Positions 1-20,759 of a DNA stretch of 20,861 nt are shown piece after piece. The stretch's first letter is position 1, and each line of letters begins with the position of its first letter. Under the pieces are notes generated by a model. The model saw nothing but the letters and a program-made list of their open reading frames with translations, was not told the origin of the DNA and did no database searches. The stretch is taken from positions 1 to 20,861 of IMG/VR virus record IMGVR_UViG_3300010354_010876. One strand, 5' to 3'. Source of the stretch: a virus. The translations under genes were made by a program, and so were the position numbers.

Positions 1-1599
1 ACCCTGCAATTCGTTCACCATCCTGAACGGGAACCCAGATAACATCTCGGCCCGTTCCTCATCCGTCTTAGACGGGAAGAGGTATTTCAGTGCTTCAATG
101 CTATCAACACCTAATTCCTGAAGATTTCGCACAACAATTGAGTTGTTCAAAATATCTTGCGTGGAATCTTCGTAGACAGGTCCCATCCAACGCCACAACA
201 CCGTAAGATCCCCATCTGGAATTAAGCCTATAACTCCAGGGGGGATCTGCTGCGTTTCTACACAAGCGAGCATTAATTTTTTAAGGGTGTCATTGTACTG
301 CTGTAAAGCAGCGTCATAAGCACTCTTTTGTTCTTCCGTGGCAGATGAATCTAAATCGATTGGTTTTTCAATCTGCGCGGCAGAAGCAAGAGAATTCTTA
401 AACAGTTGTTCCTCTTGATAAACAATCAATTCAAGACAACGACAAATGCCATGCGTGTAAATAGCGTTTGCTTTTTTCTTAGATGTTGCAGCAACACGAC
501 CAAACAATGATTTGTATTCTGTAGCAGTAACGCCTGCTGAAATAGAAAGTTCGTCTACCCCGCCTAGGGCTGTTCTAATTTCTTCTCTGTATTGACGAGC
601 AAATGCGTTTTGGTCGCCAGTGATGGCATCTGGGACGATGTAACCAACTCGGTCGTTTGGTTCCAGGTTTGCGATGATGCGTGGAACTCGAATTTGACCA
701 TCCATGCTCCGGCTGACTGGATCAGCCTTGAACATTGACCGGCTCAAGGAAGAAGGACTTGTAAAGCCTGCGTTTGCAGCAATAGAAGGCCTTTGAATGG
801 CAGTTTCGCCACCGGCTTCCATAAGGTCGGTTTTCGGCCTCGAAGACAGCAGTGTTGGATTACCAAAGAAGGTAATATTTTTTCTCATGGTACGCATCAA
901 TTCATCATGCGTACAAATGTGATTGGCCATGGCGTCAAATTCGCCAGTGCCTTCAGTAGAGAAGCCCTGGGGATTATTTACAATTTCAACACAAGGAATA
1001 AAACCAAGGCTATTCTTAAACGTCTTTGTACTACCCGTTAAAGAATAGGTGGGCATATCAAAAGAAAGCTCCCCATCCGAATGGGTTTCTTCAATTTCTT
1101 TTGCCTTGATAGAAAGACGGATGTAACGCTTTGCTCCTGGAGTCAGGGAAGTGGTTCTCCCGGAAGCAATTGAAGTGCTTAGTTGATCGCCAAAACCATT
1201 GCCACGCTTTACTTTGTAGCTGTAGATGATGATTACTTCGTCCAGCTCTCCGTCTACGTTGTAATAAGCTCTGTACTCGTGCTCTCGGAAATAGTAAAGA
1301 CGATAGTTTTGTTTTGTTGGACGAATATAAAACAGGCCTTTACCGTCACACAGGAAATACTCCCAGATTGAATCCAGGCGTGTATCCATCTTGTTGTACT
1401 TCAGTACGCGATCAAGAAAGTCTTTTCGCTGCGCACCAAAGTTATCTTGTGATGGGAAAAATTCGACACCCTGTCGGATGCCAAATAATTTCATCTGCGC
1501 AATGTGGGACGCAATGATGCCAGTATCAACAACAATGCTGCTATCTTTCTCAAGATAGGCATTGATGATTTCCTGGAGCCTGGCTTTAGCGTCCGACAT
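1..1599 (-). CDS. Phage portal protein, SPP1 gp6-like (3' end outside window)
   Basis: The ATG at 1599 opens a frame of 533 codons that runs off the left edge with no stop, so the C-terminus is missing. Portal proteins form the dodecameric ring at the capsid vertex through which DNA is packaged and leaves. The order of features matches SPP1 gp6-type portals: an N-terminal region rich in aromatic residues, a segment around residues 204-216 of the form VNNPQGFSTEG that precedes a helix carrying DELMRTMRKNITFFGNP, then a LGGVDELS motif near 343-350 followed by a basic helix YKSLFGRVAATSKKKAN, and a C-terminal helical part. The family knowledge and position downstream of TerL support the call. 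AAGG about 6 nt before ATG is a plausible SD site. The identification is from motif memory, not a search. Confidence 0.8.
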   Translation of the reverse strand, partial: MSDAKARLQEIINAYLEKDSSIVVDTGIIASHIAQMKLFGIRQGVEFFPSQDNFGAQRKDFLDRVLKYNKMDTRLDSIWEYFLCDGKGLFYIRPTKQNYRLYYFREHEYRAYYNVDGELDEVIIIYSYKVKRGNGFGDQLSTSIASGRTTSLTPGAKRYIRLSIKAKEIEETHSDGELSFDMPTYSLTGSTKTFKNSLGFIPCVEIVNNPQGFSTEGTGEFDAMANHICTHDELMRTMRKNITFFGNPTLLSSRPKTDLMEAGGETAIQRPSIAANAGFTSPSSLSRSMFKADPVSRSMDGQIRVPRIIANLEPNDRVGYIVPDAITGDQNAFARQYREEIRTALGGVDELSISAGVTATEYKSLFGRVAATSKKKANAIYTHGICRCLELIVYQEEQLFKNSLASAAQIEKPIDLDSSATEEQKSAYDAALQQYNDTLKKLMLACVETQQIPPGVIGLIPDGDLTVLWRWMGPVYEDSTQDILNNSIVVRNLQELGVDSIEALKYLFPSKTDEERAEMLSGFPFRMVNELQG

Positions 1600-2495: not shown

Positions 2496-4022
2496 TTAGT
2501 AATCAAGTTGTAATTTCCCTTTACGCATTAATCCATTAATCATCCAAACTAAGGCGTCAACACAGTCATCATGACTGCTAACACCAAAGTTTGTCAGCTC
2601 CTCAAACATGGCCGTGAAATTGCGATAACGATTAAAGATAAGTTTACGGTCCTCAAAAAGACCCATGCAACCACGGAAACGTGCCAGTTTATCAGCTCTA
2701 AAACCTTTGACGGGATGCCAATTTAAGTTGTACAGGCTTTCATTGTTTAAACACACTCGTTTAAAGTCTGCCTCCAAGGAGGCCTGGTACTGCACCGCTT
2801 CTGAATAAATATCACACGTAGAGTAGGTCGGGAAATAATTTCCATTTTCATCTCGGCCAAGCACTGACCAATCATTCAATAATTCTTTTAGAGCATCAAG
2901 TTTTTCAAGATTACCCATTACACGTAAACGGCGATAGTCAATCACATGAATGCGATCATCAATGCGACCACCAAGAACCATGACGGTGTAATCATTTTTT
3001 TCTTTTGTACCAGCAGATAAGTCAACGCCAACTGCAAGACAATCAAATTCGGTAGCGATCTCAGCTTTGACAATCAGCTCTGGCGCCAGGGACAGTTCGT
3101 TTTGACGAACCACCTGATTCATGTATTGGAAAGAGAAGGCAATTGGTGCCTGTCGCTTCTTTTCTTTTAAGTAATCAAGAGACCACATTTCAGGCCAATA
3201 AGACATTTCATCGCCGGTTGCTGGGTCATTAAGAATTGCAGATAAAACAATCTGCATCCAATTGTTTTGAGGATTAAAAGTTGTGGCATGAATATCGTCG
3301 TGACGGAAGCGCGTCCCAAGACAAATTGCGCGTGCGCCTTCAAACATTGTTGGGGCGATCACAGCATTCCAGTTCTCCTGCATCTGTTTACGAATATCTG
3401 GATTCGCAATATCAGCGGCGGATTTGATGGCGTCATCAATCATTACCAGATGAGAACGCTTAGAAGTAACGGAGCCTTTTAAGCCAGCAGCGCATAGCGT
3501 GAACTGCTCTTCACCTGTCGTACTAATACCTGCAAATTTATGATCAATGGACCAGTACTCATTACTGGTTGCTGTCTTTAAAAGGCGTACTTTAGGAAAG
3601 ACTTCTTGATATCGTTTACTTTCAATGATGCGTTTAATTGTTGCTGATTTTGAGCGTGCAATATCTACGGTATACGAAAGATAAAGTATTTGCAGTGGCA
3701 TTTTGGCATGAGTATGAATACCTATTGCCCATGCCGTTAACAGGCCAAGCACTGTGGATTTAGCGGATCCCCGTGGTGCAAGCAGATCAATATTTGGGCC
3801 TGCAATTTTAATCAGACAACTGCTATTTTCTTCTGTTACGAAATGACGATGCCAATGTTTATGATGTTCAGCCGGAGGTTTATTTGCTACGTATTCACAG
3901 AAAAAACCAAAGTCTTGTCTTGCTAGCTCCAGGGCCTCAGCGTTTTTTGCTGGGCGAATTTGTTGTTGTTGCGCAATGGCACGCGCATTACGACGATAAG
4001 CAAGATGTTGGTATGCGGGCAC
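2496..4022 (-). CDS. terL: Terminase large subunit (ATPase and nuclease)
   Basis: A complete 508-residue large terminase, the motor that cuts concatemeric DNA and pumps it into the prohead through the portal. Walker A is APRGSAKST at residues 82-90, a form with Arg in place of the usual variable position as in many TerL proteins. Walker B with the catalytic carboxylate is HLVMIDD at 191-197. The C-terminal RNase H-fold nuclease shows VGVDLSAG (Asp334), TCDIYSEA (Asp404) and SSHDDCVDAL (Asp485/486), which is the expected metal-binding trio. Length is normal for the family. The start is GTG at 4022 (MPAYQHLAYRR), reading from GTGCCCGC; no better upstream start is seen. The gene lies between two small charged proteins and the one-TM protein. 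Confidence 0.95.
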   Translation of the reverse strand: MPAYQHLAYRRNARAIAQQQQIRPAKNAEALELARQDFGFFCEYVANKPPAEHHKHWHRHFVTEENSSCLIKIAGPNIDLLAPRGSAKSTVLGLLTAWAIGIHTHAKMPLQILYLSYTVDIARSKSATIKRIIESKRYQEVFPKVRLLKTATSNEYWSIDHKFAGISTTGEEQFTLCAAGLKGSVTSKRSHLVMIDDAIKSAADIANPDIRKQMQENWNAVIAPTMFEGARAICLGTRFRHDDIHATTFNPQNNWMQIVLSAILNDPATGDEMSYWPEMWSLDYLKEKKRQAPIAFSFQYMNQVVRQNELSLAPELIVKAEIATEFDCLAVGVDLSAGTKEKNDYTVMVLGGRIDDRIHVIDYRRLRVMGNLEKLDALKELLNDWSVLGRDENGNYFPTYSTCDIYSEAVQYQASLEADFKRVCLNNESLYNLNWHPVKGFRADKLARFRGCMGLFEDRKLIFNRYRNFTAMFEELTNFGVSSHDDCVDALVWMINGLMRKGKLQLDY

Positions 4023-5171: not shown

Positions 5172-5357
5172 TTAAAAATTACTCATCATGCTGGCAAGAC
5201 CCTGCGTATAGATATTACGACGAGACTCGACAGACTCTTGACGCTTTTGGCGTTTCTTGGAGGCCTCCAGGCGGTCCAGTAATGACTGAAATTCCGTAAT
5301 ATTAAACGGAGTCTCTGCGCCAAAAGGATCGGTGCTGGGATTAGTACTTACAGTCAC
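5172..5357 (-). CDS. 61-residue protein, tandem copy 3 of 3
   Basis: Third member of a triplicated gene. It begins with GTG (5357), unlike the other copies, with the SD AGGAG about 7 nt before it. The protein has a polar N-terminus with the strictly shared NPSTDPFGAETPFN block, a variable helix (TEFQSLLDRLEASK), a very basic shared block KKRQKRQESVESRRNI, and a C-terminus QGLASMMSNF. Its differences from the other two copies lie mostly in the first five residues and in the 21-31 helix. Function is unknown; small basic proteins of this kind in a virion module may coat or bind DNA, or act as minor structural proteins. Confidence 0.75.
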   Translation of the reverse strand: MTVSTNPSTDPFGAETPFNITEFQSLLDRLEASKKRQKRQESVESRRNIYTQGLASMMSNF

Positions 5358-5372
5358 TTAAGGGCTCCTAAA

Positions 5373-5558
5373 TTAGAAGTTGCTCATCATGCTGGCAAGA
5401 CCTTGTGCAAAGATGTTGCGACGGGACTCGACAGACTCTTGACGCTTTTGACGTTTTTTGGACCCTTCAAGACGATTTAAGAGGTCTTCAAATTCCGTAA
5501 TATTAAACGGCGTCTCTGCGCCAAAAGGATCGGTGCTGGGATTAGTGGAGGTGGTCAT
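5373..5558 (-). CDS. 61-residue protein, tandem copy 2 of 3
   Basis: Middle copy of the triplicated gene, ATG at 5558, with the SD TTTAGGA about 8 nt before the start. It carries the same NPSTDPFGAETPFN block, the helix TEFEDLLNRLEGSK, the basic KKRQKRQESVESRRNI block and the LASMMSNF end. Compared with its neighbours it has Thr at residue 3, Asn at 28 and Phe for Tyr near residue 50. Start-to-start distance to both neighbours is exactly 201 bp. Role unknown. Confidence 0.78.
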   Translation of the reverse strand: MTTSTNPSTDPFGAETPFNITEFEDLLNRLEGSKKRQKRQESVESRRNIFAQGLASMMSNF

Positions 5559-5573
5559 TTACTTTGTCCTAAA

Positions 5574-5759
5574 TCAGAAGTTACTCATCATGCTGGCAAG
5601 ACCCTGAGCGTAAATATTACGCCGGGACTCAACAGACTCTTGACGCTTTTGACGCTTTTTAGATCCTTCGAGACGATCCAGAAGGGCTTCGAACTCCAGG
5701 ATGTTAAACGGAGTTTCCGCACCAAAAGGATCGGTACTTGGATTAGGTGTTACCGTCAT
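5574..5759 (-). CDS. 61-residue protein, tandem copy 1 of 3
   Basis: First-transcribed copy of the triplicated gene, ATG at 5759. It has MTVTPNPSTDPFGAETPFN, the helix LEFEALLDRLEGSK, the shared basic block KKRQKRQESVESRRNI and the LASMMSNF end. Upstream lies a TATAAT-containing stretch (5780-5792, read on the minus strand) in the short gap after the coiled-coil gene, so a new transcript could begin here. The FNF/SNF ending resembles the last residues (GAFNF) of the upstream 247-residue protein, a hint that both bind the same partner, but this is weak. Confidence 0.78.
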   Translation of the reverse strand: MTVTPNPSTDPFGAETPFNILEFEALLDRLEGSKKRQKRQESVESRRNIYAQGLASMMSNF

Positions 5760-5805: not shown

Positions 5806-6549
5806 TTAGAAATTGAAAGCACCAACAAGTCCTTGAAGGATTCCTGCATTACGAGAGATATTTGCAATTTTAACTTGACCAGTTTGGCGCATTTTTTCTT
5901 GCTCTACGCCATATTTACCACCGATTGTCGCCACGTCCCTGGCTGTCAAACCCTCGACTTCTGCAACACTCTTCATGCCGGCGTTAATAATGGCCTGAAG
6001 ATCCAGGCGACCCTTGGATTCGATCTCAGCACGTTGCAGGATCGCTTCTTTTTCCCGATCTGAAACGTATCGAGTTGCGTCTGCAGAAATACCGGTGCTT
6101 CGAATTTGTGCATCTGCTGATAAACGTGCAGTTTCTTTACGTGCATCAGCATCAAGATTACCTAGTGTAATCCGAGTTTGGGAATCAACTCCCGCAAGAG
6201 TTTGCTCACGAACAGCTTCTTGCTCAAGAAAGGAAATCATGTCTTGAGCAGAGAAGACATTTTCGTTAATTGGAGCTACGAAAGGATCCTGCTTTGGTTT
6301 GGTATCTGTAACAGCGGGTGTAACAATAGGCGCTGCTGCTTTTGCCGCAAAGGCTGACGCAGAAGGATTCAACGAAACATTTGGACGGTTTTCCGCAAAT
6401 GTAACGGCACGCGCTGGTTGGAACCCAGCTTCTTGGAAGCCTTTAAGTTCTGGTTTGCTAATAACTTTCCCGTAGGTTTCCAGCATCTGCCGAGCTGTTA
6501 CCTTGGGTGCAGCAGCTGTAGTGGTCTTTTTGGCTTTAGGTACTGGCAT
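5806..6549 (-). CDS. Coiled-coil virion-type protein with Ala/Pro-rich head
   Basis: A 247-residue protein, not recognised. Residues 1-100 are low in complexity (MPVPKAKKTTTAAAPKVT, then Ala/Pro/Val-rich linkers), as in flexible arms. From about residue 105 to 235 it is a continuous Glu/Arg/Ala-rich helix with heptad character (QEAVREQTLAGVDSQTR.. ARLSADAQIRSTG.. EKEAILQRAEIESKGR..), likely a long coiled coil; the last ten residues are hydrophobic (GILQGLVGAFNF). Long helical rods with hydrophobic tips occur in ejection or internal core proteins and in scaffolds. ATG at 6549 has the SD AAGGAT at good spacing. Confidence 0.75.
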   Translation of the reverse strand: MPVPKAKKTTTAAAPKVTARQMLETYGKVISKPELKGFQEAGFQPARAVTFAENRPNVSLNPSASAFAAKAAAPIVTPAVTDTKPKQDPFVAPINENVFSAQDMISFLEQEAVREQTLAGVDSQTRITLGNLDADARKETARLSADAQIRSTGISADATRYVSDREKEAILQRAEIESKGRLDLQAIINAGMKSVAEVEGLTARDVATIGGKYGVEQEKMRQTGQVKIANISRNAGILQGLVGAFNF

Positions 6550-6570: not shown

Positions 6571-7155
6571 CTATTTTCCCATGATTGTGTTTACGGCAGC
6601 TGCGGCAGAAGATGCAACTTTTTCGGGACGGAATAAAACAAGTCCTCGCATTAAGTTACCTTGCGCATCACGTGGCATATTTCCATACATCTGCTCCCAG
6701 GCAACATCTGCTTCTGTTTTTAACTTGCTTTGTCCTTCTCTGGAGGAGGCCAAAAGATCTCCAATAAAAGCGCCAAAAGCGCCAGGATCGCTTGGCTTGA
6801 TGCGAGAAGCACCTGCCGATTGGATGTCACGGGCAAGTTCACCTGCTGTTGGTGCACGTCCCAGGATGTCAAGATAGGAACGCTCAACAACAGGGGAGAG
6901 GCTGCTGTAACGTTCTGGCGCAATTGCCTGAGGAATCATGCTTTCGATTCGACGAGCAGCTCTTTCTGTACTGCCAGGACGCCAATCATATGCACTTGCA
7001 TAAGCGCGTAATGACTCAGCCGCCGACTCTGGAGTTTCCCCTCCAAGCTCAACTTGTTTCTTTAAGCTTTTAACAAAAGGTTTTTTCCTGCCACCTGCAT
7101 AGCGGTTGAGAATGCCTTCGAACAGACTTACATCGGGGGTATCAGAAGATGCCAT
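6571..7155 (-). CDS. DUF4214-like domain protein
   Basis: A 194-residue protein. The segment around residues 86-145 (SPVVERSYLDILGRAPTAGE.. followed by AFIGDLLASSREGQSKL) looks like a DUF4214 repeat, whose usual form is 'YrdvLGReaDaaGl...laSsEf'. DUF4214 units occur in secreted and virion-associated proteins and their function is not known. Before it is a Lys/Arg-rich segment and an Ala/Ser-rich helix; after it the protein ends in an Ala-rich tail. ATG at 7155 lies 5 nt after the stop of the preceding gene, so the two are probably co-translated. The domain call is from memory of the motif. Confidence 0.7.
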   Translation of the reverse strand: MASSDTPDVSLFEGILNRYAGGRKKPFVKSLKKQVELGGETPESAAESLRAYASAYDWRPGSTERAARRIESMIPQAIAPERYSSLSPVVERSYLDILGRAPTAGELARDIQSAGASRIKPSDPGAFGAFIGDLLASSREGQSKLKTEADVAWEQMYGNMPRDAQGNLMRGLVLFRPEKVASSAAAAVNTIMGK

Positions 7156-7160
7156 GGCAA

Positions 7161-7604
7161 TTAACCGTAATAGGAACCAGCAAAGCGTCGAGCAAATGCA
7201 GGGCCGTATTTACCTGCAAAAGCTGGGAATGTTTCTTGCCTGGCTTCAAAAGCGTCAGACTGTCTAAAGGCGGGTGAGTTTGTAAGTGCGATTTCTCGTT
7301 TTGTGTCGCGCCAATCAAGAAAACGTGGGAACTCTTGTGCATACATCGATGCACCAACTTGATAGCGCCTTTGTTCTTCTAATTGTTTCTTTGCTTCTTC
7401 TGCTGCTTTTGCGCCACCAAGTCCTTGCGCCAAGGAGCCAAGGAGACTTACTCCCATACCAACAGCACCCACTGGTCCTCCAAGGGCACCTAAGAGAGCG
7501 CTACCAAAACCACCACTGGTTGCGGCACCCGTAGCAAGGGCTCCTGCACCAGATAGACCAGAAAGTGTACTAGCCCCAAAAGAAGCGGGTGCTGCTGAAA
7601 ACAT
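7161..7604 (-). CDS. Gly/Ala-rich membrane-active small virion-type protein
   Basis: A 147-residue protein whose first 70 residues are almost only Gly, Ala, Ser and Leu, with glycine-zipper stretches (GSALLGALGGPVGAVGMGVSLLGSLAQGLGG) able to insert in membranes. A charged helix (AAEEAKKQLEEQRRYQ) and a polar aromatic C-terminus ending FARRFAGSYYG follow. This composition is typical of phage ejection proteins that form a channel through the cell envelope, for example T7 gp14, but no sequence family is recognised. It has one of the best SD sites in the window: AGAGGAGG about 8 nt before ATG 7604. Confidence 0.75.
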   Translation of the reverse strand: MFSAAPASFGASTLSGLSGAGALATGAATSGGFGSALLGALGGPVGAVGMGVSLLGSLAQGLGGAKAAEEAKKQLEEQRRYQVGASMYAQEFPRFLDWRDTKREIALTNSPAFRQSDAFEARQETFPAFAGKYGPAFARRFAGSYYG

Positions 7605-7608
7605 GAGA

Positions 7609-8109
7609 TTAACCTCCTCTACCTAAGCGTGAACGGATCGCCGAAAACCCTGGACGGCCAGAGCCAAATTGCGAGAAAATGTCTGGAACACTTTGGGTTT
7701 GTGCATACATTCCTTGCAGGGGAATTGCACGGAATGCATTCATTGTTGCAGGAATATCACGCAGTGCTTGGAGGCCTGCCCCCACCAGGTTTGATTGTAA
7801 ACCGTATTTCTGATTCGTAGCAGCAACGTCTTTATACCAGGGTCCCAGGACTTCTAGCTGTTCTTTCAAACGTTGTGGATCTTGTTGATATTCCCGTTGA
7901 CGATCAAGTAAATACGCAAGACTACCCGTTTCCTCGCCGAAGATATCTTTATATTGTTTTACAGCTCCGGGATCAATATTCATATACCGGCCAGCTAGGC
8001 CAGGTTTATTTAACTGGTCTTGGAGACCTTGCATGTTTAGGCTGCCTCCATATGACTGATACGAAGGTATGGTTCCCGAAAACTGACCCAAACCAAGTGG
8101 ATTATTCAT
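7609..8109 (-). CDS. Hypothetical virion-type protein, Gly/Gln-rich
   Basis: A 166-residue protein starting MNNPLGLGQFSGTIPSYQSYGG. It is rich in Gly, Gln, Tyr and Leu, with one charged helical stretch near residues 60-95 (YLLDRQREYQQDPQRLKEQLEVL) and a C-terminus rich in Gly and Arg (SRLGRGG). No domain recognised. I place the start at ATG 8109, five nt after the stop of the upstream gene; a TTG at 8118 in the same frame is the alternative. It sits inside the run of Gly/Ala-rich proteins, so an internal virion or ejection role is likely by context only. Confidence 0.7.
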   Translation of the reverse strand: MNNPLGLGQFSGTIPSYQSYGGSLNMQGLQDQLNKPGLAGRYMNIDPGAVKQYKDIFGEETGSLAYLLDRQREYQQDPQRLKEQLEVLGPWYKDVAATNQKYGLQSNLVGAGLQALRDIPATMNAFRAIPLQGMYAQTQSVPDIFSQFGSGRPGFSAIRSRLGRGG

Positions 8110-8114
8110 TGTTA

Positions 8115-9032
8115 TCAACCAAAGCGAATGGCGGGAGCCTGAAGGGTAGACCCTGCGTAAGGATTATTGGTTAATGCAGTACGGAGAGTTTCCCCGGTTT
8201 GTGCTTGAGCGCCTAATGCTAGTTGTCCAGCTGTTGCGACTGTACCAAGCATGGCGTATTGTTGACCCTGTGTATTAATCAATGCTTGTTGACGAACCAG
8301 GTCAGCATTTTTTAATTGGTTAATTAAAGGAATATTTCGTTGTAAATCAAGATAGGCTTGGTTGGAAGCATCACGACTCAAGTCTCGCATCGAGCTGGTG
8401 TATACACCCATCTGATCGCGATATTGCGTAGTGCCTAACTCACCCATCTGACGAGCCATCGTCATTTGAGTGCTGAACTCACCTTCTTTACCTTTGGTTG
8501 GCTCACCTGTAGCTTTTTGACGTATAGATTCCGCAGCGCTAGCAGCGGTAGGTGCGCCAATCAAACCACCAATGGCAGGAAGAACTGCACCAGCGACCTT
8601 GCCAAGAGGACCAGGGATCAAGCGGGCAGCACCAGCGCCTAACAATGCACCGGCACCACCGCCAACCAACGCACCTACCGCACCAGTGGGGCGACCGGCT
8701 TGAGCTTCTTCAACAGCAGTCATAGCTGGAGAAACGAGACCGGCAGCAAGCCCTACGCCACGGACAGGCAGACCACCAAGGAACGAACCAGCTGCACCAA
8801 GTCCTGCTTTGGCCTGCTCTAACGCTTTATTGGATAGCTCTTGTGCTCGCTGACGTGAAAACGTAGATTGAGCGGCAGGAGGGCGAGGGGCATTTCCTAA
8901 GGCACTAGGATCAAGGCCCATACGAGCTTGTACATCAGGCGGTAATTGCCGGATTTGCTCAGGTGTTAAATTAGCAAATGATTGTGGTCCGGTCGGTAAG
9001 CCTGGAATACCACCAAATTGAGGCGTTACCAT
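8115..9032 (-). CDS. Gly/Ala-rich membrane protein, candidate DNA-ejection protein
   Basis: A 305-residue protein. The N-terminal 45 residues are Pro/Gly-rich and contain LTPEQIRQLPPDVQARMGLDP. A central part (about 75-170) is strongly hydrophobic and Gly-rich, with two long segments (AGSFLGGLPVRGVGLAAGLV and GAVGALVGGGAGALLGAGAA.. GPLGKVAGAVLPAIGGLIGA) suited to a membrane hairpin. The C-terminal third is helical and Gln-rich. The pattern (soluble head, glycine-zipper membrane part, helical tail) is that of pilot or ejection proteins; no family is recognised. A TTTAAAATA box lies 17 nt before ATG 9032. Confidence 0.75.
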   Translation of the reverse strand: MVTPQFGGIPGLPTGPQSFANLTPEQIRQLPPDVQARMGLDPSALGNAPRPPAAQSTFSRQRAQELSNKALEQAKAGLGAAGSFLGGLPVRGVGLAAGLVSPAMTAVEEAQAGRPTGAVGALVGGGAGALLGAGAARLIPGPLGKVAGAVLPAIGGLIGAPTAASAAESIRQKATGEPTKGKEGEFSTQMTMARQMGELGTTQYRDQMGVYTSSMRDLSRDASNQAYLDLQRNIPLINQLKNADLVRQQALINTQGQQYAMLGTVATAGQLALGAQAQTGETLRTALTNNPYAGSTLQAPAIRFG

Positions 9033-9048
9033 CTAACTAACGTCATCT

Positions 9049-9057
9049 TATTTTAAA
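9049..9057 (-). promoter_or_regulatory. Candidate late-promoter box TTTAAAATA
   Basis: The 34-bp gap before 9032 reads TTTAAAATAAG on the minus strand. The same box occurs at 4411-4419 (TTTAAAATA) and 13262-13270 (CTTAAAATA), each just upstream of a minus-strand gene. It may be a phage-specific promoter motif; three copies in AT-rich gaps are not strong proof. Confidence 0.3.
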
Positions 9058-9066
9058 TAAATTCTA

Positions 9067-9954
9067 TCATTGCATGCCCTGAGTATATTCACTGGTTGTT
9101 GGTAATGTGGGGCGATTACCTGCAGCAATAACTTCGTTAATTACATTGCCCGTAAGCACGCCGCCAACAGACCCAGCGAAGCCAGCCGCAACAGTTTTTG
9201 CCAACCTATTTTTGCCGCCTGCAAGACGAGCAGTGGCTCCTGCTGAAGCGGCACCAGCGGCAACACCAAGTACAGAAGGAATGGTGACAGGGTAGCCAAG
9301 GAGACGCGCTTCTGGATAACCCTGAAGATTTTCTGGAGTTACTTTGAGTACCCCAAGGGTACCTTTGTCTTGGTAGTAATTACGCAGGAAATTACCGTAA
9401 CGTTCAGGAGTTAAATCTGGAATATCTTTTTTAGCTTCTTCGTAAGCAAGTGGACGGCCTGTTCTACCAAGGAAGAAACGTTCAAATAATTCAGGAACAG
9501 GCTGTGATGTTTCGCGTCTGTCTTCAGAACCAGGCTCTGCATATGCTTGAGCAAATCCCTTGGGCCTAAACATCTCACCTATATTAGTGATGTCATATGC
9601 ACCGGCTGCAGCAATAGCTGGAGCGACAGCGGCACTCATTGCAAGGCCTGTACCAAGTACACCTAATTCTTTGGATGCTTCCTTACCAATGGCAAGACGA
9701 GCAGCTTTATCAGCAAGTGCGTTGGGGTGATTAAAAGCCCACCACACAGCCCTTGTTCCATCTGTCACAACATCTGTTAAAAGACGTGCAGAATAAGCAC
9801 CCAAGAACTCTTGTGGTTTTTGTCGAAGTGTAATTCCCTCTTGCTTGAGTTCTTGTTTAAATTGAGGACCTAGAACGGTAACACGTTGTTCAGGGCGTTT
9901 GTCAATTAACTCGACCGCTTTCCTGGCACCTTGTACAAATCTACTATCAGCCAC
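9067..9954 (-). CDS. Large Ala/Gly-rich membrane virion-type protein
   Basis: About 295 residues, not recognised. The first 85 residues are a charged helical region; then there is a hydrophobic segment (ELGVLGTGLAMSAAVAPAIAAAGAY), a polar middle with FERFFLGRTGRP and ERYGNFLRNYYQDKG, and a second hydrophobic Gly/Ala part (TIPSVLGVAAGAASAGATARLAGG and TVAAGFAGSVGGVLTGN). I chose GTG 9954 because GGAGGT at 9962-9967 lies exactly 7 nt before it; a GTG at 9963 would lie inside that SD. This start overlaps the upstream stop by 8 nt. By composition and company it is a candidate ejection or internal virion protein. Confidence 0.75.
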   Translation of the reverse strand: MADSRFVQGARKAVELIDKRPEQRVTVLGPQFKQELKQEGITLRQKPQEFLGAYSARLLTDVVTDGTRAVWWAFNHPNALADKAARLAIGKEASKELGVLGTGLAMSAAVAPAIAAAGAYDITNIGEMFRPKGFAQAYAEPGSEDRRETSQPVPELFERFFLGRTGRPLAYEEAKKDIPDLTPERYGNFLRNYYQDKGTLGVLKVTPENLQGYPEARLLGYPVTIPSVLGVAAGAASAGATARLAGGKNRLAKTVAAGFAGSVGGVLTGNVINEVIAAGNRPTLPTTSEYTQGMQ

Positions 9955-10495
9955 GGGGTACACCTCCGGATTCTGCTAATAATGCAAGATCTTCTTGGCT
10001 TAAATAATCCATGTAAGAAGGCGGTTTCCTATTGACGTAATCATTTAGGAATTCAATACCGGTTGTTTGGAATTGTGTGCCAGGAGCAACAGCTTGTACG
10101 TCGAGACCATTAATGGCTGCACGCTGAGACATCTCCTGCATAATCTGTTGTTCTTGTGACATTACAGTTGGTGTCACAGGTTGAGCTCCGTATAAAAGAG
10201 AACTTGCGGCAACAGTGGAGCCAAGAGAGCCGCCGATGTTTGCAACGTTCTCCAAACCACTCCTCAGGGTTTGCGGTTGAATACCTAGTACTGGTTTAGT
10301 GATCTTTGTGCCCAACGCTCTTGCACCCATTGTCAGTGGGTAAGCCCCAAGGAAATCAGCAGCCCCGTACGCAAGCGCGGCTTTAGGTCCCTCCAGCATC
10401 CCAAAGCCTGCTGCTAGGGCGCTGCCAGGGGCAACACTCTTTGCTACCTCTTTTGAATTTTGTTTAACAAAATTTAAGAGCCCTTGAAAGTTCAC
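9947..10495 (-). CDS. Ala/Gly-rich virion-type protein with hydrophobic segments
   Basis: A 182-residue protein with GTG start at 10495 and AGGGG about 6 nt upstream. After a short polar head (NFQGLLNFVKQNSKEV) comes a Gly/Ala/Leu-rich region (residues 22-65: APGSALAAGFGMLEGPKAAL.. YGAADFLGAYPLTMGARAL), a Gly/Ser part (NVANIGGSLGSTVAASSLLYG), and a polar Gln/Asp-rich C-terminus. Not recognised. It precedes and slightly overlaps the next Gly/Ala-rich gene, and the two may form a functional pair. Confidence 0.72.
   Translation of the reverse strand: MNFQGLLNFVKQNSKEVAKSVAPGSALAAGFGMLEGPKAALAYGAADFLGAYPLTMGARALGTKITKPVLGIQPQTLRSGLENVANIGGSLGSTVAASSLLYGAQPVTPTVMSQEQQIMQEMSQRAAINGLDVQAVAPGTQFQTTGIEFLNDYVNRKPPSYMDYLSQEDLALLAESGGVPRG
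9962..9967 (-). promoter_or_regulatory. Shine-Dalgarno deciding the 9954 start
   Basis: GGAGGT on the minus strand, 7 nt before GTG 9954. It rules out the upstream GTG at 9963, which overlaps the SD itself. Confidence 0.7.
10456..10474. promoter_or_regulatory. Perfect 9-bp-arm palindrome inside gene start
   Basis: AATTTTGTT-T-AACAAAATT lies about 20 nt downstream of the GTG at 10495. It could form an mRNA hairpin or bind a dimeric protein. It also encodes the normal NFVKQN residues of the gene, so chance is possible. Confidence 0.35.
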
Positions 10496-10532
10496 TTATT
10501 TTCCCCTTTCTTTTAATTATAAAATAACTGTT

Positions 10533-11096
10533 TTATGTCTTTTTTTCTTGTTCTGTTTTTTCTGTGTTATCAGAGGTTTTCTCGGAAAGCAATTGTGCAA
10601 CTGACTTGTTGTTCTCAACTTCATTCTCAACTTTCTTTTCTGCTGCTGCCATGAGGTAACCTTTTGGATCTGGATTCTTGATCCTGGGCATAGGATTACT
10701 TGCCCGCTTATCTGGATTAATGGTTGGGCTAATGCCATAGGCTTCAACCCATACATCAGAAAAACCTGGTTGTTCTTCTGGTCTTAATGGGGTTAACGGG
10801 CGACCATTTTCAAAATCGTAACTTTCACTACGAACAAATCTACCAATATCTGCAAAAACCTCGTATTGCTCAGGCGTGGTACCAACAAAATTTAAACTTG
10901 GGTTTAATTGAAGTTTTCTTGTTTGTACACGGCGCAATAAATCACGTTGTTCAAAGCGACTGGGCATCCAGGGGGCTGCACCAGTTGATGCCTTGGCTTG
11001 AAAAAGATCGTCAAAATTTAATTGCCGTTTTTTAATAAACGGATCTTTGGTGTAATCAAAATAACGACCTAATTCAAGGCGGTGATCTTTAGCCAT
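10533..11096 (-). CDS. Hypothetical virion-module protein with acidic tail
   Basis: A 187-residue soluble protein starting MAKDHRLELGRYFDYTKDPF. The first 125 residues mix aromatic, Pro and charged residues, as in a compact fold (FADIGRFVRSESYDFENG, PGFSDVWVEAYGISP). The last 40 residues are a charged tail of Lys, Glu, Asn and Thr. No family recognised. The ATG at 11096 shares its A with the TGA of the upstream gene (TGATG); the TTG three bases earlier is less likely. It is followed by a 37-bp gap with a TATAAT-like box. Confidence 0.72.
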   Translation of the reverse strand: MAKDHRLELGRYFDYTKDPFIKKRQLNFDDLFQAKASTGAAPWMPSRFEQRDLLRRVQTRKLQLNPSLNFVGTTPEQYEVFADIGRFVRSESYDFENGRPLTPLRPEEQPGFSDVWVEAYGISPTINPDKRASNPMPRIKNPDPKGYLMAAAEKKVENEVENNKSVAQLLSEKTSDNTEKTEQEKKT

Positions 11097-11338
11097 CAAT
11101 CTTCCGTCTCAGATGATTTTTCATCTTTTCTTTTGTTCAAGCCTACCAGGGTTTTGCGGAGACGCGCTTGTTTTACAGTGCGGTCATCATAGTCATCTGG
11201 ATTGGCAAGGACATTTTCCTGGAGCTGAGCAGAAGTAATGCCCTTGCGTTTGGCCTTGGCAGTGAAGGCGCCTTCCTTCATCTCCGTGCCTTGAATCCAC
11301 TTTTTATCTTTCTTTTTCTTTTTATCAGACATGATCAA
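11096..11338 (-). CDS. Small Lys-rich WIQ-family phage protein
   Basis: An 80-residue basic protein (78 if ATG 11332 is used): a Lys run (SDKKKKKDKKWIQ), then EGAFTAKAKRKGITSAQLQ, NVLANPDDY and TVKQARLRKTLVGLNKRKD. Short proteins with a KKWIQ head, a 'G-F-kaAk-G-t' middle and a QARLAKTL tail are spread widely in phages and are usually found in the capsid region; their function is unknown, and a minor head or DNA-packing protein is plausible. It overlaps both neighbours by a few bases, so it is translated as part of the operon. Confidence 0.72.
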   Translation of the reverse strand: MIMSDKKKKKDKKWIQGTEMKEGAFTAKAKRKGITSAQLQENVLANPDDYDDRTVKQARLRKTLVGLNKRKDEKSSETED

Positions 11339-13227
11339 ACGTTGAAACCAAGATTACGTAAAACCACCTGAGGGTCGCGTCCTTCGATTCTAGCTCGACG
11401 AAGCGCTTCTGAAGCGATTAACGATTTTTGTGAAGATTGCGGTCCATACGTACGAGTAACTTGTTCTTGAGGCGGTGGGATTGGTACGTCACCTTCCGGA
11501 GAAGCCGACGCCTGCTCCAGGGCTTCTTCTACAAGCTCATTGGTTGTCAGTCGAGTCGGACGGGTCGTAGGTCCAGAGCGTTTAGCCGTTGGTTCAATGC
11601 CGTAGATGCCTTTTGAGCTACCTGTTTGACCTGCGGGATCGTATTCAGCGACAAGGCGGCCACCACCAGTTTTTGGTCCAAGATCAACTGATGGACGACC
11701 ACCACGGATTTCTAGCGTTTCCGGAATGATCCGCCCTAATTCGTCGTATTCATAATATGGACGTACACCTTCTTGTACGTTTGTCATCTTGTAGGTAGAA
11801 CCTAAGTCTTGCAAAGATTTCATTCGACCACGTACATAATCACGCTCCGCAAGGGCATCACCAATATCAACATTTAAGCTGCTGGGATCAGGAAGTTTTT
11901 GCTGTTGATTTTTGACTTGTGCAAACATACGGGAATATGCACCTCCAGAAGCAGGCTCGCGTTCCATCGCTACGCGTAACATCAGTTCTTGTTCACCAAG
12001 TTCTTGGGCTTTACGTCCCAAGGCTTCTTGTTGAGTGCCAAGTTTAGAAATTTGGTTTGTTAACTCGATATCTTCTACAAGCAAATCTCCAGTGTATTCA
12101 GGTAGTCCAGTTGGTTTAAAGAATTGGCTTGTGGGGAGATTTGTATCATTGAGGGACATTTGTACGGCTGGTTTAACCGTCAAAGGAGATGAAGGTGTTT
12201 GTGAAAAACGAGAAAGGACACTTGGATCTCCTGTTGCAGCATATAGTTCAGCAGCTTCAGCAATCGCTGGATTGGAAGAAAGAACACGTTCTGCCCTTGT
12301 TGGAGAGAAACGTCCTGTTAACTCCTGCCTCTGTTGAGAAAGAAAAGATTGTGCTTGTTCTAAAGCATTTGTTTGATCAACAGGAACACCATCGGAAGTA
12401 TTTGCTAATGCAATGTCAGCACTTCCAGTTTGCCGGGCAACACTATTGATTTGTGCAAGATCAAGATCTTCATTGCGTTGAGCACCAAGCATTGTGCGTC
12501 CTGTGATCTGATCTTCTCCAGATCCAAGGGCAGCAATGGCTTGCGTCGAAACTAATGCAGCATCTTCTTGACGCTGCCTGGCAAAATGAAGAAGACTTTG
12601 CGTTGCTTGATCACGACGTGCTGCAGCAACTTCAGCAGATACTGGTCCAAGTTTTGCGTAGTTAATATCCTGTGGGTCAGGACGATATTGGGGTAAGGTT
12701 CCTAAGTTTGTAAGTATTGTGCCAAGTTGAGAGGGCTTGGCTAAGGCAGCTATCTCTTCTGTTGTTGGTTTAGGGAAATTAGACGTTAATTGACGCGCGT
12801 ATTGTGCAAGGCTTTCTTCTTCAGTTGGAATTAAGCTTCTTGTTAAAGAAGTTTGGACCACACCTGCGGGACGCTCTTCTCTTGCTTGTCGAACAAACTC
12901 TTCGGCGCGTTGTTGTTTTCCAATTGCACCAAGATTTTGTACAGCTTCGACGCCTTGTTGTGTGAATACAGGTTTTTTGGAGGGAGCAACATTTGTTCTG
13001 CCAGCTAACCGACGTGCACCTAAGGCAGCAGCACCTAAAACACCTAGACCAGCGGTCACAGCACCCAAGATCCCTGGCAGATTTGACTCTTCTTGCTGTC
13101 CACGAAGCTGATTACGACGGAATTCCAGTACTTCAGGTGCTAACTCTGCCCTTTCCTCCGGATCTTCTGGGTATGGGGTTCCAGTAGCGCGGCTATAGGC
13201 TGCAAAATCAGCTGGAGAAAGTGCCAT
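11335..13227 (-). CDS. Large Gln/Ala-rich virion-type protein with N-terminal TM
   Basis: A 630-residue protein, first gene of the left arm. Residues 1-45 contain a charged motif (LSPADFAAYSRATGTPYPED, ELAPEVLEFRRNQLR), then a Gly/Ala/Leu-rich membrane-like segment at about 50-72 (LPGILGAVTAGLGVLGAAALGARRL). The remaining 550 residues are long helical stretches rich in Gln, Ala, Leu, Arg and Thr, with a predicted coiled coil near 385-425 (LTNQISKLGTQQEALGRKAQELGEQE), and a C-terminal GRDPQVVLRNLGFNV end. Length, position and composition suggest an internal virion or ejection protein. No family recognised. The ATG at 13227 lacks a clear SD. Confidence 0.78.
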   Translation of the reverse strand: MALSPADFAAYSRATGTPYPEDPEERAELAPEVLEFRRNQLRGQQEESNLPGILGAVTAGLGVLGAAALGARRLAGRTNVAPSKKPVFTQQGVEAVQNLGAIGKQQRAEEFVRQAREERPAGVVQTSLTRSLIPTEEESLAQYARQLTSNFPKPTTEEIAALAKPSQLGTILTNLGTLPQYRPDPQDINYAKLGPVSAEVAAARRDQATQSLLHFARQRQEDAALVSTQAIAALGSGEDQITGRTMLGAQRNEDLDLAQINSVARQTGSADIALANTSDGVPVDQTNALEQAQSFLSQQRQELTGRFSPTRAERVLSSNPAIAEAAELYAATGDPSVLSRFSQTPSSPLTVKPAVQMSLNDTNLPTSQFFKPTGLPEYTGDLLVEDIELTNQISKLGTQQEALGRKAQELGEQELMLRVAMEREPASGGAYSRMFAQVKNQQQKLPDPSSLNVDIGDALAERDYVRGRMKSLQDLGSTYKMTNVQEGVRPYYEYDELGRIIPETLEIRGGRPSVDLGPKTGGGRLVAEYDPAGQTGSSKGIYGIEPTAKRSGPTTRPTRLTTNELVEEALEQASASPEGDVPIPPPQEQVTRTYGPQSSQKSLIASEALRRARIEGRDPQVVLRNLGFNV

Positions 13228-19046: not shown

Positions 19047-20759
19047 ATGCATTTTGCTCTCCCCTCTAACCTTCAACAAGAGCTGCTTGCCTACGATCCA
19101 AAGCTCAAGGCTTTGGTCAAAGAGCAGCAGCCTCAGAAGACCACTAAGAAAGCTAAGTACCCATTGGGTAACATCCCACATCTCATCCCTGAGACTGTGG
19201 TACGCAGCAGTCTGCAGCAAGATGCAATCGACCGTATCAATGGTGAGCTAGCACCAGGGCGATTCCATTCGTTTACCAAGGTGGTAGATGTGGCTACACC
19301 TCAGGCACGCACTGTGCCCTTTGCCATCATCTATCACTTCGAGCAATGCTGGTACGCAGCATGGCTTCCTCAACGGGGCGAAGACTATTTATATGGATAC
19401 GCCTATGCATTCAAGAACACTGCAGCTGCTGCTAAGCAGGTGCCACATCACATCTGGAATAGTAAAGATAAATGCGCTGAACACACCACTGGTCGTGGCG
19501 TGCAGATCTTTACTTACTCCACGACAGTAACTAAGCAAGACATTATCAATGGCAACGACGGTCGCAACTGGCGTGCCATGGGTATTGCTAGTTACTACCA
19601 GAAGTCACGTGATATTTATGAAGCACTTCTAGCATTTGAGCAAGAAGTGATGAATACTATTCCTACCTGGAGCGATTCTCGATCAATCTTTGATCGACTC
19701 AAGTGCAACAACATTGTTGATGCCTTGGATATGCCTACATTCTTTAGCTCTGTAATAGAAGATAAGACCAAGTATCACCTAACCGTTAACGGTTTGATTG
19801 AACACTGCAAGGAACTTGAACGTAAGAACAAAGCGCCAACGATGTTCTCAACGTTAGTTTCAATTGCGCACATTGCTGGTACACCAGCTATTGCAAATAA
19901 ACTGCAGTGTATGCTTAATCGTTCTACTAATGAATACAACAATCCTGATAACACAAGACGTAAAGATATTCAATACGGTTACAAAGAATTTGAACAAACC
20001 TGCAACTCTATCTACTTTATCAATAGGATCTGGCCTGACTGTCCTGTTGATCACTACCGTACATACTTTGACCAACTACGTAGAGTCAATCTCAATCACT
20101 TGCGCACCAATGATCAGTTAATTGCTTGGCTACGTAAGCATATGACTGTTGCATCTTTGTTCAACATGATGTCTAAACATGTTGAACAAAATGAGCAAGA
20201 AAACAGACGTTTATCTACATATAGTGACCATGATTATGTTATCTACGCATGGTATGAAATGAATGATACATTCTCTATGATCATGCGTATTTTAGATCAT
20301 GGCACAAAACTAGAACAACCCAAGCGCTGGCGTATGCCTGACTTCCATGACTATGTTCAAGCAGAAGCATGGAAAATAACCAATAAGAATGAGGCACTGC
20401 ACCAGGATTTATTCCCTGTGCCTATCAAGGTCAACATGGGTGACAGTGACTGGACATTCCTACAACCTATTGACACACATCAGCTATCCCAGTGGGGACA
20501 AGCTGTACGTAACTGTGTTGGCTCTGCGTCCCAGTATGCAGAGAACATCAAGAAACGCAAGCACTTCATTGTGCTTTGCATGATTGATGGTAAACCAACC
20601 TTTACTATCCAACTGGATGTATCAATGGGTGTTATGAATGTGATACAGATTTCTGGTGTAGCCAACCAACGGCTAGGCGAAGACCAGAAAGATAAGTACG
20701 CCAATGCATTCAAGCTAGCCTTGCAATCTCGCGAAAAGGAGCTAAGCTCTAAGAGCTGA
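19047..20759 (+). CDS. PcfJ-like domain protein, 570 aa
   Basis: The largest gene of the right arm. The C-terminal part (residues about 475-545) carries the PcfJ-like signature: WGQAVRNCVGSASQYAENIK (Cys490) followed by KRKHFIVLCMIDGKPTFTIQL and QISGVANQRL. In this family the pattern is '(H/N)CVGsY...i..gks.i..ir..gkp.aTiEl......Q..G..N'. The family is named after a protein of the conjugative plasmid pCF10, occurs in plasmids and phages, and has no defined activity. The N-terminal 470 residues are mixed alpha/beta with many aromatic residues and no recognised domain. ATG 19047 follows CGAACTAAATTC and no SD. Confidence 0.75.
   Translation: MHFALPSNLQQELLAYDPKLKALVKEQQPQKTTKKAKYPLGNIPHLIPETVVRSSLQQDAIDRINGELAPGRFHSFTKVVDVATPQARTVPFAIIYHFEQCWYAAWLPQRGEDYLYGYAYAFKNTAAAAKQVPHHIWNSKDKCAEHTTGRGVQIFTYSTTVTKQDIINGNDGRNWRAMGIASYYQKSRDIYEALLAFEQEVMNTIPTWSDSRSIFDRLKCNNIVDALDMPTFFSSVIEDKTKYHLTVNGLIEHCKELERKNKAPTMFSTLVSIAHIAGTPAIANKLQCMLNRSTNEYNNPDNTRRKDIQYGYKEFEQTCNSIYFINRIWPDCPVDHYRTYFDQLRRVNLNHLRTNDQLIAWLRKHMTVASLFNMMSKHVEQNEQENRRLSTYSDHDYVIYAWYEMNDTFSMIMRILDHGTKLEQPKRWRMPDFHDYVQAEAWKITNKNEALHQDLFPVPIKVNMGDSDWTFLQPIDTHQLSQWGQAVRNCVGSASQYAENIKKRKHFIVLCMIDGKPTFTIQLDVSMGVMNVIQISGVANQRLGEDQKDKYANAFKLALQSREKELSSKS

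Follow-up and report, generated by a model that had tools for sequence, protein, structure and literature searches.

A fast-evolving late-gene block with an N4 gp52-like protein in an uncultured relative of cyanophage S-EIV1: a probable DNA-ejection module

Content and setting of the late-gene block

This analysis concerns a block of eight co-directional late genes on the minus strand (positions 7161-13227) of IMG/VR record IMGVR_UViG_3300010354_010876, a 20.9-kb virus contig whose whole length of 20,861 nucleotides we call the window. The block lies upstream of a terS-like gene, terL and the portal gene, and we suggest that it is probably the DNA-ejection (internal virion protein) module, of the N4/T7 type, of a short-tailed cyanophage of the S-EIV1 lineage. 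A first-pass annotation had singled out five proteins in this stretch (630, 182, 295, 305 and 147 amino acids, aa) as part of one operon and reminiscent of a podovirus ejection set. All five open reading frames (ORFs) exist, co-directional and on the minus strand; the 295-aa product reflects a later start and measures 298 aa from the first GTG. The same stretch also holds 80-, 188- and 169-aa genes. The genes that matter here are listed below.

11335-13227, minus strand: 630-aa candidate ejection protein that opens the late run, with a conserved N-terminus, one membrane-type segment near residue 53 and a variable body (89 loci)
11096-11338, minus strand: 80-aa protein, soluble, basic and conserved (median identity 0.78; match to phrog_20603, a family of unknown function, at E = 5.7e-29)
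10533-11099, minus strand: 188-aa conserved soluble protein (median identity 0.63; no PDB match)
9947-10495, minus strand: 182-aa Gly/Ala-rich candidate ejection protein with a borderline membrane segment (102 loci)
9067-9963, minus strand: 298-aa protein with hydrophobic helices (113 loci; median identity 0.54)
8115-9032, minus strand: 305-aa Gly/Ala-rich candidate ejection protein with a conserved C-terminal tail (117 loci)
7609-8118, minus strand: 169-aa protein, fast-evolving (median identity 0.19; 93 loci) and lacking a membrane segment
7161-7604, minus strand: 147-aa N4 gp52/DEV gp73-like ejection protein, putative outer-membrane pore (PDB, hhalign and PHROG matches)
6571-7155, minus strand: 194-aa helical protein, directly after the 147-aa gene (placed by gene order); in some relatives its gene is fused with the downstream neighbour
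5806-6549, minus strand: coiled-coil-like protein of 247 aa whose hydrophobic C-terminal tail is conserved (124 loci)
2496-4022, minus strand: terminase large subunit (TerL), 508 aa (phrog_38, E = 4.3e-74; 80% identical to S-EIV1)
1-1599, minus strand: portal-like protein, truncated by the window end (phrog_20475, E = 1.6e-215; phrog_64 portal, E = 2e-4; 75% identical to S-EIV1)

By TerL and the portal-like protein, the window belongs to an uncultured phage related to Synechococcus phage S-EIV1 (KJ410740); the other matches listed for the window TerL fall below 25% identity. S-EIV1, a member of the Caudoviricetes, is the nearest isolate and the only one to match the window portal-like protein or the 298-aa protein, and at least 599 close TerL relatives occur in IMG/VR. 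It has been named among the short-tailed freshwater cyanophages (PMC7156551). The S-EIV1 late proteins of 527 and 901 aa, aligned to learn the tail type, have no PDB match, and the short tail therefore rests on that single published remark. The placement of the run upstream of terS, terL and portal was borne out, the 218-aa terS-like gene being so called by position only, with no family model in support.

The gene order 630-80-188-182-298-305-169-147-194-247-61 (one to three copies)-83-terS-like-TerL-portal, with small variations, is common to the window, S-EIV1 and those IMG/VR loci that reach the block. Iterated profiles find homologues of each of the five named genes in 79-117 IMG/VR loci and, by these homologues, the kept order and the S-EIV1 run, all five are real genes. 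Most block genes have a median identity to the window of only 0.19-0.54, compared with 0.89 for TerL and 0.84 for the portal, and conservation is unevenly spread within the proteins: 12 columns at the N-terminus of the 630-aa family stand at 0.41 versus 0.13 in the body (its S-EIV1 homologue, AHV82205, has 693 aa and 26% identity), while the C-termini of the 305- and 247-aa families stand at 0.46 versus 0.27 and 0.34 versus 0.15, respectively. Fast divergence has been reported for ejection-protein genes (reviewed in PMC8954989); that of the block agrees with this, but variable genes of other kinds could show the same.

Relationship of the 147-aa protein to N4 gp52 and DEV gp73

We consider the 147-aa protein very probably a gp52-like ejection protein because five routes point the same way: PDB profile search, profile-profile comparison, shuffled controls, single-sequence alignment and the PHROG families. 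When a 24-sequence family profile was run against all PDB sequences, the first two matches were DEV gp73 (8VXQ, E = 0.0013) and the 16.5 kDa gp52 of N4 (9YF4, E = 0.045), and DEV gp73 was kept by a wider 48-sequence profile (E = 0.0015). The wider profile ranked a plant-virus coat fusion first (E = 6e-5); this match consists of two weak pieces, its summed score being higher but its individual stretches weaker, and was taken as chance. In hhalign against 12 Schitoviridae gp52-like proteins the family reached a probability of 70%, compared with at most 0.6% for thirteen other window families, and none of 200 block-shuffled column controls reached its score of 34.2 (shuffles 13.9, standard deviation 3.3). 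With regional shuffling of the DEV and LUZ7 proteins, 0-1 of 500 cases attained the hmmsearch score observed, the result for the Littlefix protein being weaker (15/500 and 2/500), and the alignment of one relative (L104) with DEV gp73 scored 92 versus 51 (standard deviation 10) for shuffles, none of 200 of which equalled it. Finally, PHROG 2646 and 16623, which DEV gp73 and N4 gp52 match at E-values from 1e-46 to 2e-11, are also matched by some members of the 147-aa family; the window protein gives a weak match to 2646 (E = 0.003).

Size and layout agree with this assignment. The relatives are mostly 133-177 aa long and the Schitoviridae set 139-177 aa, and a hydrophobic Gly-rich part is followed by a long helix, the helix order being read from a low-confidence model (predicted local distance difference test, pLDDT, 62). 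That model, when compared with known structures, aligned with six chains, none at Z >= 2. The window protein falls short of the T7_gp14 (PF24072) cut-off (14.7 bits versus 27), three of 24 relatives match that family weakly (best E = 8e-4), and PHROG gp14 models likewise give weak, sub-cutoff matches to the family. DEV gp73 forms pores in bilayers and a nine-fold channel together with gp72 (PMC10925440), and N4 gp52 lies partly within the tail lumen and makes channels (PMC12633501). In the DNA ejectosome of the Schitoviridae these proteins serve as the outer-membrane pore. The first-pass statement that these proteins form an unrecognized module and match no family thus stands for the other named proteins, the 147-aa protein being the exception.

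Membrane-type segments and the remaining block proteins

The best 19-residue hydropathy is 1.91 in the 630-aa, 1.73 in the 298-aa, 1.59 in the 305-aa, 1.70 in the 147-aa and 1.04 in the 182-aa protein, and a value of at least 1.3 is found in 80%, 98%, 87%, 32% and 61% of the respective relatives. This supports a membrane-type segment in four of the five, with the 182-aa protein borderline; the 80-, 188- and 169-aa proteins have none by hydropathy. Glycine zippers had also been proposed. Among the five named proteins GxxxG motifs exceed composition-matched shuffles only in the 305-aa protein (10 versus 5.8, z 2.3), so the 'zipper' is mostly a matter of Gly/Ala composition. In S-EIV1, four of the six Gly/Ala-rich hydrophobic proteins of at least 100 aa fall in the corresponding block, which makes up seven of 68 genes (P = 6e-4, with thresholds chosen by the analyst). 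Two genes past the S-EIV1 portal lies another Gly/Ala-rich membrane-type protein of 158 aa (AHV82226; L081:20270-20746), which may be part of the same machine.

None of the other four named proteins, and no other membrane-type protein of the block, is as well conserved as the 298-aa protein. Structure prediction and structure-based search, which the first-pass annotation had recommended, gave a confident AlphaFold2 model for this protein (pLDDT 85.5, predicted template modelling score 0.76), and a poor one for the 147-aa protein. No PDB entry matches the 298-aa model at E <= 0.001; VIA-align ranks a designed protein highest (Z 5.0, 63 residues), and the model's sole strong match is a viral protein with 40% identity. 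Such an absence is no proof of a new fold, and we treat the protein as a candidate for an inner-membrane or connecting role. Used as profiles against the PDB, the 298-, 630- and 188-aa families returned nothing, and the 305- and 194-aa families gave weak rows only, none of them ejection proteins; no match of use was obtained for the 305-, 182- and 630-aa families.

Comparison with known ejection systems

The block resembles the Schitoviridae cassette (N4 gp50-gp51-gp52; DEV gp71-gp72-gp73) in being a late, co-directional cluster with a small gp52/gp73-like protein of matching size, in which a Gly-rich hydrophobic part precedes a long helix. It differs in having no detected homologue of the gp51/gp72 tunnel protein and no giant virion RNA polymerase, in containing several lineage-specific membrane-type proteins, and in sitting just before the terminase genes. 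With the T7 gp14-gp15-gp16 core, or ejectosome, it shares the clustering of fast-evolving, internal-type proteins with membrane segments; unlike T7, it has no gp15 or gp16 homologue, nothing above 630 aa and no match to gp14 itself. Nor was a hydrolase domain found in the block, whereas the S-EIV1 hydrolases are separate downstream genes. The S-EIV1 late genes AHV82205-AHV82213 follow the same order, with 26-79% identity for pairs detected by blastp; the 169- and 147-aa counterparts are recognized there by position and profile alone, and all of these homologues are annotated 'hypothetical protein'.

Tunnel-type ejection proteins are often matched by size and position alone (PMC8954989). In T7 and DEV the tunnel gene comes after the pore gene; the products of the 194- and 247-aa genes, which occupy this position behind the putative pore gene, are the best guess for a periplasmic tunnel. 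S-EIV1 and the relatives L065, L075 and L079 have a single ORF in place of these two genes, with a product of 292 aa in S-EIV1. The 194-aa neighbour had been described as DUF4214-like, a reading that we could not uphold: the window protein matches no Pfam family at E <= 1, and DUF4214 is missing among the families matched by 48 relatives at E <= 0.1.

A probable ejection module and its alternatives

From the gene set, its conservation, the membrane-type segments and the gp52-like identity we infer that the block proteins are located in the virion and ejected, and that they assemble with a division of labour; the module is fast-evolving and apparently divided among many small proteins. By analogy with N4, DEV and T7, the proteins would reside in the head or near the portal, exit by way of the short tail upon adsorption and build a transient channel across the host envelope that lets the phage DNA in. 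The 147-aa protein would insert by its Gly-rich hydrophobic segment as an outer-membrane pore, inner-membrane and connecting parts would come from the 298-, 305-, 182- and 630-aa proteins through their membrane-type segments, and the helical 194- and 247-aa products might form the periplasmic tunnel. Peptidoglycan could be opened by the M23 peptidase and the Phage_lysozyme2 protein, whose genes lie downstream in the same S-EIV1 late region; in T7 this role is held within the single protein gp16 (PMC8954989).

Several results weigh against this interpretation. The gp52 likeness is remote and lies in a compositionally biased region, and the window 147-aa protein, taken singly, does not align significantly with DEV gp73 (49 of 500 shuffles did as well). 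Between the 147-aa family and T7 gp14 itself, neither hhalign nor shuffle-controlled hmmsearch gave a match. No hhalign probability above 1.6% was obtained when 14 window families were compared with DEV gp72-like proteins and T7 gp14, gp15 and gp16, and the cassette has no large protein resembling gp16 or the virion RNA polymerase, its largest product (630 aa; 693 aa in S-EIV1) having no T7 gp16 match. Fast evolution and membrane segments, moreover, are no proof of ejection. Among the papers searched, none combines S-EIV1 with virion proteomics. The podovirus-like ejection set of the first-pass annotation finds support in the 147-aa protein as its anchor, with kept order, fast divergence and membrane segments beside it, and is plausible for the rest.

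The alternative that survives best, although we judge it unlikely, is a mixed block in which the 147-aa protein, with or without one or two others, is ejected and the remaining products stay in the particle as scaffold, portal-associated or capsid-lining proteins. The 80-, 188- and 169-aa proteins lack a membrane segment, the first two are well conserved, and the run continues into the terminase and portal genes, all of which would suit such a mixture; four proteins beyond the 147-aa one, however, carry membrane-type segments in most relatives, which is unexpected of scaffold or capsid-lining proteins. It is very improbable that the Gly/Ala-rich proteins are pieces of a long-tailed phage tape measure. 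PHROG tape-measure profiles do match the 147-aa (8e-6) and 305-aa (phrog_167, 0.0015) proteins, but we set these matches aside because they are local, spanning 50-120 residues of profiles of ~1000-2000, and confined to Gly/Ala-rich parts; besides, the longest block protein has 630 aa and S-EIV1 is listed as short-tailed. Small lysis membrane proteins (holins, spanins), suggested by size and hydrophobic segments, are at least as improbable, given the adjoining packaging genes, the gp52-like identity and the presence of lysis-type genes elsewhere in S-EIV1. The first-pass idea of an internal virion membrane, to which several membrane-type proteins near packaging genes might have pointed, can hardly be entertained because the phage has a tailed-phage TerL (phrog_38) and a portal-like protein, and its nearest isolate belongs to the Caudoviricetes.

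Shared C-terminal tails and other features

Similar short hydrophobic C-terminal ends occur in the 247-aa family (LVGAFNF, ITSMFNF), the 61-aa paralogues (LASMMSNF) and the downstream 901-aa, M23 and lysozyme families (in S-EIV1, AHV82231, AHV82234 and AHV82241), proteins otherwise without detectable relation. In S-EIV1, 6 of 36 late genes versus 0 of 87 others encode a tail that is free of charge and has an aromatic residue or Met close to its end (P = 5e-4). We take this enrichment as a lead only, because the criterion was set after the tails were seen and misses two of the families that prompted it; the tails are possibly a docking or loading signal. An extended version of the ejection-module reading, tentative and on balance rather doubtful, would combine an N4-like outer-membrane pore with at least four lineage-specific membrane proteins, replacing one tunnel and one giant inner-membrane protein, and would have these tails of unrelated late proteins serve as the common signal.

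The 61-aa paralogues are encoded at 5172-5759 by three tandem genes (201-bp period, 2.9 copies), of which relatives carry one or two; the 83-aa gene belongs to the same kin. In two relatives a SET-domain protein (PF00856; E = 2e-9 and 2e-12) is inserted between the 194- and 247-aa genes (L073:7192-7587 and L009:3067-3474). Between TerL and portal lie two genes: at 1987-2169 a 60-aa MazE/AbrB-like, DNA-binding-type protein (PF04014, E = 1e-6), conserved in relatives, and at 2166-2468 a protein of 100 aa that has a membrane helix at its N-terminus and matches phrog_462 (lipoprotein, E = 4.7e-11) and phrog_739 (Rz-like spanin, E = 0.0035). The S-EIV1 TerL (L081:14081-16621; KJ410740 54080-56620) measures 846 aa because of a ~330-residue insert near residue 200 that is missing in the window TerL; by its start and end the insert looks like a candidate intein. 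On the plus strand, at 19047-20759, a 570-aa protein has a PcfJ-like domain (PF14284, E = 5.5e-9), unusual in a phage early region.

Implications for the S-EIV1 lineage

Phages of the S-EIV1 lineage are abundant among public viral contigs, and we found no description of their DNA delivery in the accessible literature. By sequence comparison one block protein is related to the N4 pore protein, the others being known only within this lineage. The N4-like gene would provide a first anchor for the ejection machine of these phages and extend gp52-like pores beyond the Schitoviridae to cyanophages, and the block offers a short list of named proteins for virion testing in an existing isolate. If the tasks of gp15 and gp16 are indeed shared among many small proteins here, the S-EIV1 lineage would show how an ejection machine can be divided.

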